Positions 48,448 to 54,156 of a stretch of DNA of 64,000 nucleotides are shown one piece after another. Each line of letters begins with the position of its first letter. Within the stretch, counting starts at the first letter, position 1. The notes beneath the pieces are model-generated. The model was not told the origin of the DNA, searched no databases, and saw only the letters and a list, made by a program, of their open reading frames with translations. This DNA comes from an uncultured Clostridia bacterium (lineage in GTDB: Bacteria > Bacillota > Clostridia > Oscillospirales > Oscillospiraceae), in contig CAMFBN010000008.1 of NCBI GenBank assembly GCA_945948535.1, positions 1-64,000 on the forward strand, given 5' to 3'. A program made the translations under genes and the position numbers.

Positions 48448-48480
48448 AAACACCCTACCGGTTTGCCCGGCAGGGTGTTT
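48448..48480. terminator. Bidirectional terminator between convergent GNAT and spmB genes
   Basis: AAACACCCTACCGG-TTTG-CCCGGCAGGGTGTTT. Confidence 0.85.
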
Positions 48481-48994
48481 ATGCTGGAAGGAACCATCGC
48501 ACCGTCCAGGAAGCCATGCAGAATCCGACAAAATCGGCAAACAAAGCGGCGGGAATGGTGTACCGGGTTTTTCGAATGCCTGCCGCGCCAAAATAGACGC
48601 TGATGGTGTAGAATGTGGTTTCCGTTGACCCAAGCATCACGGCGGCAGTCCTTCCCACGGTGGAATCGGGGCCGTAGCGTGCCATTAAATCCGCACCCAC
48701 CGCCAGCGCGGCGCTGCCGCTCAAGGGCCGCACCAGCACCAGCAGCGCCGTTTCCGGCGGAATGCCGAACCGGGCAAATACCGGGGACAGAAGCCTACTG
48801 ATGGTTTCAGCTGCGCCGGAGGCTTGCAGCATATGCACCGCGCACAGCAGCAAAATCAGTGCTGGCAGAATGGAAACGATCAGCCGCAGACCATCGGCCG
48901 CACCGGACAGCATAATGTCATAAGCGTTTTCTTTTCGCCCCAGCGCCAGTGCCATGGATACAAACAAAATCAGAGGAACAATGTAATCCGTCAT
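48479..48994 (-). CDS. spmB: Spore maturation protein SpmB
   Basis: GAADGLRLIVSILPALILLLCAVHML; RPLSGSAALAVGADLM; MLGSTETTFYTISVYFGAAGIRKTRYTI. Confidence 0.9.
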   Translation of the reverse strand: MTDYIVPLILFVSMALALGRKENAYDIMLSGAADGLRLIVSILPALILLLCAVHMLQASGAAETISRLLSPVFARFGIPPETALLVLVRPLSGSAALAVGADLMARYGPDSTVGRTAAVMLGSTETTFYTISVYFGAAGIRKTRYTIPAALFADFVGFCMASWTVRWFLPA

Positions 48995-49563
48995 CGCTTC
49001 CAGACCTTTCCCAGCAGCCATGCGGCGGTGACACCCAGTCCGGCGGACAGGAGACTGGTCAGCCATACTGCCGGAAGAATGTCGAAAGGGGTGCTGCACC
49101 CCAGCGCGGCCCGGACAGCTGCCACATTGGAAGGAATCAGCTGAATGGAGGCGGTGTTTAGTACGATCAGACGACACAGCTCGTCGGTGGCTGTGTCACC
49201 ACGTTTCAGCCGTTTTGCTGCCTGAATCCCCATGGGAGTCGCCGCGTTGCCCAGCCCCAGAAAATTCGCGCAGATATTGGCGCTGAGCTTCTCCGAAAGA
49301 ATCGGGTCTTTTCGTGTTGAAGGGAAAACGCCGTGAAGTACGGGACGAAGAAGTCTGGACAGCATTCCGGTGATTCCTGCGGCTTCCATCACGGCGGCGG
49401 CGCCGGTCCACAGGCAGATGGAACCCGCCATGGACATTCCAAGGGTCACGCCGGTCTGCGCCCCCTGCAAAACCGCAGCAGCCAGAATTCCCCCGCGTCC
49501 GTTCATCGCCGCGCACAGAATGCTGATACCGGCGATGCCTGCCCAAATCCAGCTCATCAGCAT
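48991..49563 (-). CDS. spmA: Spore maturation protein SpmA
   Basis: LSEKLSANICANFLGLGNAATPMGIQAAKRL; overlaps spmB start by 4 bp; start chosen from RBS. Confidence 0.9.
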   Translation of the reverse strand: MLMSWIWAGIAGISILCAAMNGRGGILAAAVLQGAQTGVTLGMSMAGSICLWTGAAAVMEAAGITGMLSRLLRPVLHGVFPSTRKDPILSEKLSANICANFLGLGNAATPMGIQAAKRLKRGDTATDELCRLIVLNTASIQLIPSNVAAVRAALGCSTPFDILPAVWLTSLLSAGLGVTAAWLLGKVWKR

Positions 49564-49723
49564 GGACATCCCTCCCCTGTGCTGTATCCTATGCGGCAGG
49601 GACGCCGGGATATTCGGGGAAAGCCGGACGATGGGATTGACATATCTCCCCAAAAACGATAACATAGTAAAAGAGAATGTGCTTATCGGCTTTACTCAGC
49701 GGACAGATCATGCGTAATTGTCA

Positions 49724-51425: not shown

Positions 51426-51454
51426 TTGACAAATCGGTCTATTAGTGATAGACT
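51426..51454 (+). promoter_or_regulatory. Predicted promoter TTGACA-N17-TAGACT of the blaI/blaR1-like operon
   Basis: Consensus -35, weak -10, overlapped by dyad operator. Confidence 0.65.
51437..51453. promoter_or_regulatory. Dyad operator 1 (GTCTAT-TAGTG-ATAGAC)
   Basis: Perfect 6-bp inverted repeat between -35 and -10. Confidence 0.75.
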
Positions 51455-51462
51455 ACAAAAAA

Positions 51463-51481
51463 GGTCTATTATAAATAGACC
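51463..51481. promoter_or_regulatory. Dyad operator 2 (GGTCTAT-TATAA-ATAGACC)
   Basis: Perfect 7-bp inverted repeat downstream of the -10, same core as operator 1. Confidence 0.8.
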
Positions 51482-51501: not shown

Positions 51502-51873
51502 ATGGACGATTTCAGATTAGGCGTCGTAGAGACCCGGTTTGCGGAGCTGATCTGGGCGCATGAGCCCCTCAGTTCCGGCGAACTGGTGAAGCTGTGTGCA
51601 AGGGAATTGGAGTGGAAAAAATCCACCACCTATACGGTGCTGAAAAAGCTCTGTGACCGGGGTATCTTTCAAAATCAGGACGGCATTGTGACTTCCATTG
51701 TATCCCGGCAGGAATTCCAGTCCCGGCAGAGCCGCCGGTTCGTGGAGGATACCTTTTCCGGTTCTCTGCCGGCCTTCATCGCCGCTTTTGCCGATGGTGG
51801 AAATCTGACAGACAGGGACATTTCTGAAATCCGGAAAATGATCGATTCTTATTGGGGAGGCGGGAAGAAATGA
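51502..51873 (+). CDS. BlaI/MecI/CopY family transcriptional regulator
   Basis: VETRFAELIWAHEPLSSGELVKLC...WKKSTTYTVLKKLCDRGIF winged helix. Confidence 0.92.
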   Translation: MDDFRLGVVETRFAELIWAHEPLSSGELVKLCARELEWKKSTTYTVLKKLCDRGIFQNQDGIVTSIVSRQEFQSRQSRRFVEDTFSGSLPAFIAAFADGGNLTDRDISEIRKMIDSYWGGGKK

Positions 51874-54077
51874 CAGAAATATTCCTGTATCTTGCCAACA
51901 GGAGCATCACGGCGGGCTGCCTGATTCTGGCTGTTCTGGCACTGCGGCTGCTTCTGCGCAAGGTTCCCAAGAACCTGCTGCTCTGGCTGTGGGCGCTGGT
52001 TGGCCTTCGGCTTATCCTGCCGGTTTCCGTGGAAAGCGCCCTGAGCCTGATTCCCAAAGCGAAGCCCATTCCCATGGACATTGCCTATTCCCCGGCCCCG
52101 GCCATTGACAGCGGTATCGCTGTGATCGACCGGGCGGTAAACCCGGTGATCACGGAGAATCTGGCACCCGCTGTGACAGCCAGCGTCAACCCCATGCAGC
52201 TTGTGCTGCACATTGCAGCGCTGCTTTGGACTGCCGTCATGGCGGCAATGCTTCTGTATGCCGTCATCAGCTATATCCGGCTTGCCCGAAAGGTTCGGGT
52301 ATCCCTGCGTCTGCGGGACAATCTCTACCTGTGCGATGGCATCCGAACTCCTTTTATTCTGGGCATTGTCAAACCCAAAATCTACCTTCCCTCGGATATG
52401 GCCCCTGAGAACCAGTCCTATGTGCTGAAACATGAGGCCGCCCATCTGCGCCACTGTGACCACTGGTGGAAGCCGCTGGGGTACTTACTGCTTTGTGTGT
52501 ACTGGTTCAATCCACTGGTTTGGGCCGCGTATCTGCTGTTCTGCCGGGATTTGGAAATGGCCTGTGACGAGCGGGCCGTGGCGGGCATGGGGGAAGGGGA
52601 GCGGAAGGCCTATTCTTACGCTCTGCTGTCCTGCGCCGCACCCGGAAGAGCCGTGGCGGCGTGCCCGCTGGCCTTTGGGGAGAACAGCGTGAAATCCAGA
52701 ATCAAAAATGTGCTGCAATTCAAAAAGGCCGGCTTCTGGGTCATCGCCGCGGTGCTGGTGATTACCGTCATTACGGCGGTGTGCTTCCTGACCAGCCCGA
52801 AGGAGGAGCCGGAGAAAGCGACTGTGCAAACGGAATTCACAGAAGCTACGCCGGAAACCACCGTGCCGGAGGAAGGGGACTATCAGCCGCTGGATGGCTT
52901 TTACGCCTACACCAACGGGAAACTTCAGTTGGAAATTGATAAGGTTTATGGCGTCAAGAAGCGGATGGCACAGGACAAAAATGGCGAGGAATATGAGCAG
53001 ACCATTCTCCTGACGGGGCCGGGCACGGTGGTGACCATCATTGAACCGGATATGCGCGATGGAACGGAAGGGTGGCGGATTTGCGAGACGACTGGTACGC
53101 TGTCGCCGATCCCAATTACCGATGGAGAAAGAAGCAGGCACCTGGTACTCAGTTCCAACGACTATTATATTGCAGAGGTGGATTCCGCTTCCCGTAGAGT
53201 TTTGCTTTTGCAGCGAAAGGTGGAGGACATTACCTTCTACCAGCCAGCCACCGCCGCGGATGCCGATGCCTTTGACCTGAATGCCGGAAAGCTTCTTTAC
53301 GCCTACCAGCGCTTCATGAAAACCGCCCCCGGGGATTTGAATAAGCTGGCGCTGGCACTGGTGGTGATGGAGAACCACTCCCCGGAGGAATTGGTGGATA
53401 CCACCGGGCTTCCGGCGTATTTGAAGGATGAAAACACTTACCGTCAGGCATTTCCCTTTTTGAAGCCAGAGTTATCTCTGGAACGCATGAAGCAGATGAC
53501 GGTGGAAGACCTGTTGACATTGATGCTGATACGGGGCGCGGATGACGCAGCCTATGCCCTTGCCCGGTTTGACGCGGGCAGCGAGGAAGCCATGGTGGAA
53601 AAGATGAATGAGTACGTCAAATACGCCTGCATGGATACGAACTACACAGATCTCTTTGGTTACGCCGAGGGGCAGTTCACCACCGGCATGGACACCATTT
53701 TCCTTGTGAATCGAATTCTGTCCGACCCATGTCTCTCCAAAATCTGGGGGACGAGAGATTATACCTTCCGCTTCCCGGACACCGGGGAGGAATACACGGT
53801 GCAAACCACCAACTATTTGTTTGACAATCAGACCATTCCGGAGTTCTACGACGTCCGTGTGACCGGCGGCTTTGCCTATTATCGCGGGACTGCCTGCGCG
53901 GTCTGCACCGTCCGGCAGGATGGGAAAGATGTGCTGTTTGTTATTCTGGGCGCGCAGCGGAGATTTGCGGAAAATGGCTGGCAGGTGGTATACTATGGCA
54001 ATTACGAGGAAATGGGAAGCCTGATTGGCACTGTCTTCGCTGCCATGGAAAGCAGCCCGCCCCAGTTCGCGAACTGA
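51870..54077 (+). CDS. BlaR1-like M56 membrane metalloprotease fused to a D-Ala-D-Ala carboxypeptidase (S11)-like C-terminal domain
   Basis: M56 HExxH (YVLKHEAAHLRHCDHWWKPLGYLLLCVYWFNPLVW), DLEMACDE; C-terminal TVEDLLTLMLIRGADDAAYALA / MNEYVKYACMDTNYTDLFGY / VTGGFAYYRGTACAVCTVRQDGKDVLFVILGA. Confidence 0.85.
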   Translation: MTEIFLYLANRSITAGCLILAVLALRLLLRKVPKNLLLWLWALVGLRLILPVSVESALSLIPKAKPIPMDIAYSPAPAIDSGIAVIDRAVNPVITENLAPAVTASVNPMQLVLHIAALLWTAVMAAMLLYAVISYIRLARKVRVSLRLRDNLYLCDGIRTPFILGIVKPKIYLPSDMAPENQSYVLKHEAAHLRHCDHWWKPLGYLLLCVYWFNPLVWAAYLLFCRDLEMACDERAVAGMGEGERKAYSYALLSCAAPGRAVAACPLAFGENSVKSRIKNVLQFKKAGFWVIAAVLVITVITAVCFLTSPKEEPEKATVQTEFTEATPETTVPEEGDYQPLDGFYAYTNGKLQLEIDKVYGVKKRMAQDKNGEEYEQTILLTGPGTVVTIIEPDMRDGTEGWRICETTGTLSPIPITDGERSRHLVLSSNDYYIAEVDSASRRVLLLQRKVEDITFYQPATAADADAFDLNAGKLLYAYQRFMKTAPGDLNKLALALVVMENHSPEELVDTTGLPAYLKDENTYRQAFPFLKPELSLERMKQMTVEDLLTLMLIRGADDAAYALARFDAGSEEAMVEKMNEYVKYACMDTNYTDLFGYAEGQFTTGMDTIFLVNRILSDPCLSKIWGTRDYTFRFPDTGEEYTVQTTNYLFDNQTIPEFYDVRVTGGFAYYRGTACAVCTVRQDGKDVLFVILGAQRRFAENGWQVVYYGNYEEMGSLIGTVFAAMESSPPQFAN

Positions 54078-54127
54078 ATACAAGTCAGGCGGGAGCACAA
54101 TCCTGCCTGACTTTTTGTGTCAAATGC

Positions 54128-54156
54128 TTGCACCTCCCGGCGATAAGTGCTATAAT
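54128..54156 (+). promoter_or_regulatory. Predicted promoter TTGCAC-N17-TATAAT upstream of ABC exporter pair
   Basis: Consensus -10, 17-bp spacing. Confidence 0.7.

Follow-up and report, generated by a model that had tools for sequence, protein, structure and literature searches.

BlaR1 and MecR1 are the textbook example of covalent antibiotic sensing. These receptors of Staphylococcus and Bacillus (MEROPS family M56) combine a four-helix M56 protease, bearing the motifs HExxH...ExxxD, with an outer domain of the penicillin-binding protein (PBP) superfamily that resembles class-D beta-lactamases, and they act with a BlaI/MecI-type repressor partner. Acylation of the BlaR1 sensor by a beta-lactam, which is required for signalling, displaces the extracellular loop EL1 from the sensor site and shifts the sensor toward the membrane; the protease, otherwise blocked by an autocleavage loop, cuts BlaI at N101-F102 (PMC9834060). 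Fragments of peptidoglycan are also known to feed into the Bla pathway at the level of the repressor (PMC3305447). Here we describe a gene in a 64,000-nucleotide stretch of DNA from an uncultured Clostridia bacterium (the window; positions 1 to 64,000 of contig CAMFBN010000008.1, assembly GCA_945948535.1), the product of which is a variation on the BlaR1-type receptor plan with the sensor exchanged for a degenerate D,D-carboxypeptidase-fold domain of family S11. No earlier description of such M56-S11 fusions was found in the open-access literature.

The M56-S11 receptor shares with BlaR1/MecR1 the protease motifs, a predicted four-helix membrane part, an outer domain of the PBP superfamily and the repressor partner. 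It differs in that the sensor is S11-type and has lost the serine of SxxK, the SxN motif and the KTG motif, in an extra linker of about 140 amino acids (aa), and in a transcription unit that contains no beta-lactamase or PBP gene (no genome-wide search for a beta-lactamase was made). The M. tuberculosis BlaR1 homologue likewise combines an M56 protease and BlaI without an acylated class-D sensor, but it has no sensor domain (PMC9834060), whereas the sensor here is replaced. As for Clostridium thermocellum BlaI_0696/BlaR1, the regulon appears to be very small and centred on its own operon, with one target promoter here compared to three for BlaI_0696 (PMC8457756); this likeness covers the operator and regulon. 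The ectodomain has the fold of, and sequence homology to, S11 D,D-carboxypeptidases such as E. coli PBP5, the Streptomyces K15 transpeptidase and B. subtilis DacB, but unlike these it has lost all three motifs and is fused to a receptor. Nature thus offers a receptor of the BlaR1 type that should be incapable of acylation, and with it a means of testing whether reversible ligand binding can drive the M56-BlaI pathway.

Receptor architecture and the M56 protease

The initial annotation of this locus proposed a BlaR1-like M56 protease joined to a dead S11 domain at 51870-54077, and the frame there was found to be a single one of 735 codons. The order along the protein is M56 zinc protease, linker and S11 D,D-carboxypeptidase-fold domain, with the following features (G000 denotes the genome of the window, other G numbers the genomes of relatives, and L numbers fetched loci):

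51870..54077, + strand: M56-S11 receptor, 735 aa; ATG at 51870, stop at 54077, frame unbroken
51891..52709, + strand: M56 metalloprotease domain, residues 8-280 (Pfam Peptidase_M56, E 4.6e-52)
52431..52445, + strand: zinc motif HEAAH, H188-E189-x-x-H192 (H188, E189 and H192 invariant in 36 M56 proteins)
52554..52568, + strand: second gluzincin motif, E229xxxD233 (invariant in the same 36)
52671..52676, + strand: A268-F269 in the P-x-AFGE loop, putative counterpart of the BlaR1 autocleavage site S283-F284, near which it falls with the register about 2 residues off
52818..53234, + strand: beta-rich linker, residues 317-455 (no family match; strands in predicted models)
53235..54074, + strand: S11-fold ectodomain, residues 456-735, catalytically degenerate (Pfam, Foldseek and selection, see below)
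53334..53345, + strand: SxxK position, D489-L-N-K492, Ser lost and Lys kept (alignments)
53535..53543, + strand: SxN position, G556-A-D558 (alignments)
53871..53879, + strand: true KTG position, F668-A669-Y670 (alignment with the intact relatives L057, L059, L061 and L075)

The HEAAH signature noted at the outset was confirmed, HExxH being invariant across the fusions and their paralogues. It aligns to H201ExxH of S. aureus BlaR1, and E229xxxD233 aligns to E242xxxD, these being the zinc-protease motifs of that protein (PMC9834060). The modelled M56 part matched the BlaR1 transmembrane/protease structure 8exr in Foldseek (TMt 0.53, root-mean-square deviation 3.0), and the full-length model gave five structure matches below E 1e-3, every one of which was BlaR1. 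The NCBIfam model blaR1_generic scored the receptor at 71 bits, under its cut-off of 400. In the P-x-AFGE loop, P266, A268, F269, G270 and E271 were invariant in the 36 M56 proteins, and residues 262-270 were modelled at a low predicted local distance difference test (pLDDT) value.

The loop EL1 (residues 61-108) was 74% identical within the fusions and 34% identical between the fusions and paralogues. This drop is larger than elsewhere in the protein, the fusions and paralogues being 53% identical over transmembrane helices 1-2 and 50% over the protease, and it fits a contact of EL1 with the ectodomain.

The S11 ectodomain: loss of catalysis and origin

An S11 domain, rather than the class-D-like sensor usual in BlaR1, had been read from the sequence, and two approaches agreed with this. 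The Pfam family Peptidase_S11 matched residues 463-696 (E 2e-18; 67.2 bits compared to a cut-off of 27.6), which, like the M56 match, lies well outside what chance would give, and the PDB sequence matches of the C-terminal part were S11-type D,D-peptidases only, save the entry 4drt, which is named a designed serine hydrolase. An AlphaFold model of the ectodomain, made from an alignment of 42 rows, had a pLDDT above 90 across most of the S11 part. When this model was compared to known structures with Foldseek, as the initial annotation had suggested, it matched the S11 D,D-peptidase structures 1es2 (K15 transpeptidase, TMt 0.80), 4p0m (Rv2911, TMt 0.81) and 3mfd, and no class-D BlaR1 sensor was among the top 50 matches.

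Alignment confirmed the proposed replacement of SxxK by DLNK, with the SxxK lysine retained as K492, and of SxN by GAD. For KTG, the claim that the motif is lost was correct, but its assignment to a VTG was out of register: the intact relatives read RVTGG-KTG-YTSQAG, so VTG belongs to the conserved stretch ahead of the motif and is ruled out as its equivalent. The SxxK serine is missing from all seven orthologues (Asp in six, His in G007), as is the KTG lysine. K492, D558 and V664-T665-G666-G667, which surround the old active site, are kept in all seven fusions. Because the nucleophilic serine and the KTG lysine are missing, the ectodomain should not be acylated by beta-lactams. The earlier proposal of a non-covalent sensor is thus upheld as regards the S11 fold and the loss of the acylating residues, whereas a muropeptide or lipid II stem as the ligand stays a conjecture.

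Purifying selection acts on the S11 domain. Among the orthologues, its ratio of nonsynonymous to synonymous substitution (dN/dS, w) was 0.08-0.22, close to the 0.12-0.22 of the M56 domain, and therefore it is not a decaying relic; the linker (residues 317-455) was the least constrained part of the receptor, with w of 0.19-0.45.

Of the 136 genomes in the genus sample, seven carry an orthologous fusion locus (G000, G007, G030, G052, G361, G369 and G377). When 251 genomes from 106 genera of the family were searched with an S11 profile, the matches listed included no frame longer than 674 aa outside the genus, and ten fetched long-frame S11 matches from outside the genus (596-674 aa) contained no M56. 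Searching 295 genomes of the order with the full protein gave no fusion among the matches listed; the similarity of order-level M56 relatives, about 50% identical, ended near residue 315-370, and their frames continued. The survey of other Firmicutes that had been proposed, carried out on these genus, family and order samples, therefore placed the fusion in one genus only among the matches listed. A wide distribution in Firmicutes is contradicted by the family and order samples, which leave room for fusions elsewhere.

Throughout the genus there is also a standalone S11 protein of about 500 aa, whose sequence shows an apparent signal peptide and an apparent membrane helix at the C-terminus; unlike the fused domain, it is secreted, anchored by this helix and without M56. 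In 25 sampled proteins of this degenerate kind the KTG was lost in all (the site reading FAS, LQS, LPS and others) and the SxxK lysine was kept in all; the SxxK serine was lost in 22. At the serine position these proteins have Thr, Ala, Gly or Ser, and the Asn of SxN was kept in most. Sequence identity (about 33-39%) and the tree both place these standalone degenerate proteins, for example one of 499 aa on contig C29 of G000, nearest to the fused domain. In a tree of S11 domains built without the catalytic motif columns, the degenerate standalone proteins and the fusions formed a clade apart from intact S11 (support 100/99), within which the seven fusions were monophyletic (support 100/100), so that the fusion has one origin. 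Intermediates are present in the genus: S11 is intact in G006 and G035, the serine alone is lost in G021, and KTG alone is altered in G001. Because the fused domain groups with degenerate standalone proteins and such intermediates exist, it was probably catalytically dead, or becoming so, before its capture by M56. The origin of the receptor can be traced in one genus, from active S11 enzyme to degenerate anchored S11 and to receptor ectodomain.

Two further observations concern degenerate S11 proteins. The secreted, anchored, degenerate S11 of G000 (G000:C29:13037-13873) and its relatives in the genus have lost KTG throughout one clade, and the locus L048 (G002:C31:78500-83500) has a tandem pair of degenerate S11 genes, of which only one encodes the C-terminal membrane helix.

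BlaI partner, proposed signalling and alternatives

The receptor gene is preceded by a repressor gene and a promoter with two operator-like dyads:

51426..51454, + strand: promoter of blaI-M56S11, TTGACA-17-TAGACT (promoter scan; conserved in 7 of 7 loci)
51436..51454, no strand: operator-like dyad 1, GGTCTAT-N5-ATAGACT, between -35 and -10
51463..51481, no strand: operator-like dyad 2, GGTCTAT-N5-ATAGACC, 27 bp downstream of dyad 1
51502..51873, + strand: BlaI/MecI/CopY-type repressor (Penicillinase_R), 123 aa (PF03965, E 6e-20)

The blaI gene overlaps the receptor frame by 4 nucleotides, an overlapping blaI is found in all seven orthologous loci, and the C-terminal SLPAFIAAFA of BlaI is conserved, with AAFA(D/E) at the conserved end. 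The dyads GGTCTATTAGTGATAGACT and GGTCTATTATAAATAGACC are likewise conserved in the promoter in 7 of 7 loci. The operator of C. thermocellum BlaI_0696, determined by DNA affinity purification sequencing and electrophoretic mobility shift assay, is GTCTAT-N5-ATAGAC, of which two copies are needed (PMC8457756), and the predicted operator here has the same half-site and 5-nucleotide gap. The exact dyad pair occurs once in the genome, at the module's own promoter, compared to zero for a reversed-pattern control; single dyads with up to 2 mismatches were, over the whole genome, no commoner than the control.

We favour, with moderate confidence, an autoregulated BlaI-M56 receptor module whose non-acylatable ectodomain senses peptidoglycan or its precursors. 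A BlaI-like dimer would bind both GTCTAT-N5-ATAGAC dyads and repress its own promoter, and the M56 protein would cross the membrane with four helices, placing the zinc protease in the cytosol and the S11-fold domain outside. The trigger would be a ligand in the old substrate cleft, most likely a D-Ala-D-Ala peptidoglycan stem or precursor, or else a partner protein, the binding of which would be reversible and would replace acylation. The resulting change may reach the protease by way of EL1 and the final membrane helix; the protease would then leave a self-inhibited state and cleave BlaI near its C-terminal A-F site, derepressing the module and any output that it may have beyond autoregulation.

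Several points weigh against this proposal. The argument for a wall-derived ligand is indirect, coming from the ancestry of the domain and from a VanX-like M56 receptor in the same genome (described below), and loss of the three motifs could also abolish the binding of stem peptides, leaving a protein-protein interface. The divergence of EL1 can also be explained by plain drift of a surface loop, and an EL1-ectodomain contact is invisible because the full-length model has low confidence beyond M56 (predicted template modelling score 0.47, with only 7 rows covering the ectodomain). Finally, the genome-wide search for dyad pairs found no regulated target beyond the module's own promoter, and so a physiological output is missing.

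The S11 domain might instead be a protein-protein module, docking on a partner such as the standalone degenerate S11, a cell-wall synthase or a hydrolase and reporting the state of that partner in place of a small ligand. Pseudoenzymes often retain binding rather than catalysis, and the receptor is accompanied by a standalone anchored degenerate S11 in G000, G030, G052, G361, G369 and G007; however, the two genes are on separate contigs in G000 and about 6 kb apart, in different units, in G030. We regard docking as unlikely, although it deserves consideration.

A functional BlaR1 that continues to detect beta-lactams, by non-covalent binding or in what is left of its pocket, appears improbable. 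The BlaR1-type protease, the BlaI partner and the BlaI operator are all present, but BlaR1 needs acylation (PMC9834060), and in 7 of 7 orthologues the acylating serine is replaced and the KTG lysine is missing.

Control of drug or peptide efflux was considered because two ATP-binding cassette (ABC) half-transporter genes follow the receptor, directly downstream in 4 of the 7 genomes, and the initial annotation implied an operon with them. Between the receptor and these genes are the following:

54082..54113, + strand: hairpin resembling a terminator, with a T-run, just past the receptor gene, 13-pair stem; also in G030
54128..54156, + strand: separate promoter of the ABC exporter pair, TTGCAC-17-TATAAT (read by eye, weak -35; conserved in 4 loci)

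No GTCTAT dyad was found at this second promoter. Five relatives tested (G009, G053, G042, G032 and G019) have the pair but lack the module, and DNA homology with three module-free relatives begins at about 54112, 54121 and 54146, at or beside the ABC promoter. In G007 and G377 the pair is on a different contig from the module, and it does not adjoin the module in G052 and G007. The intervening terminator and promoter, and the independence of the pair from the module, speak against a regulated operon that includes the exporters, and we therefore regard blaI-M56S11 as its own transcription unit; receptor control of the exporters has little to recommend it.

A non-wall signal (a host or dietary glycan, a metal or a peptide), with no S11 ligand specificity left, would agree with the unrelated ectodomains (Big_14, SH3 and unassigned) of paralogous M56 receptors in the genus, from which it follows that ligands vary among M56 receptors. 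The retention of K492, D558 and V664-T665-G666-G667 around the old active site makes such a signal very improbable for the M56-S11 receptor. A non-functional relic or assembly chimera, which the loss of catalysis and the narrow distribution (7/136) might suggest, is barely credible and is contradicted by purifying selection and by an open frame in seven independent assemblies with a single fusion origin.

Other BlaI-M56 modules

G000 encodes another receptor fusion (L052:1793-5071, equivalent to G000:C14:7292-10570; 1093 aa), which consists of M56, a VanX-like D-Ala-D-Ala dipeptidase domain and a weak SH3_3 match. Its Peptidase_M15 match has an E value of 4e-34, the residues of SxHxxGxxxD and EWWH are intact, its own BlaI gene is upstream, and a full copy, 96% identical, is present in G361. 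Ectodomains that recognise D-Ala-D-Ala therefore recur in the receptor set.

Contigs C1, C8, C11, C14 and C45 of G000 (L146-L153) hold eight BlaI-M56 pairs, in one of which the M56 is a fragment. They have a common promoter layout, with dyad 1 inside the -35/-10 spacer and, by a crude scan, dyad 2 lying 24-28 bp downstream in 7 of 8. The half-sites differ among the pairs, which suggests that they are insulated parallel receptors. With several such modules and varied ectodomains, BlaR1-like sensing in Clostridia may be much wider than beta-lactam resistance. We tentatively extend the favoured mechanism to a more specific form, which we advance as a possibility: the retired D,D-carboxypeptidase sensor would read free or membrane-bound D-Ala-D-Ala stems reversibly, and its module would belong to a set of about eight in this one Clostridia genome, insulated from each other, each with its own half-site and ectodomain, at least two of these ectodomains being derived from D-Ala-D-Ala enzymes.

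A ninth BlaI-family gene (G000:C1:148670-149017; L154) lacks a paired dyad ahead of it and, among the matches, an M56 gene next to it. In G052, the M56-S11 module has as neighbours a divergent BlaI gene and another BlaI-M56 pair, together forming a local cluster (L039:4461-10878; G052:C50). The loci L049 and L050 encode M56 proteins with Cys-rich repeats in the ectodomain, for example CTQKGMENRTCQLCKHSY; the L049 ectodomain had no Pfam match. Within the window, two adjoining Gate-domain (PF07670) proteins are encoded at 48479-49665 on the - strand, which may resemble an SpmA/SpmB-type pair.
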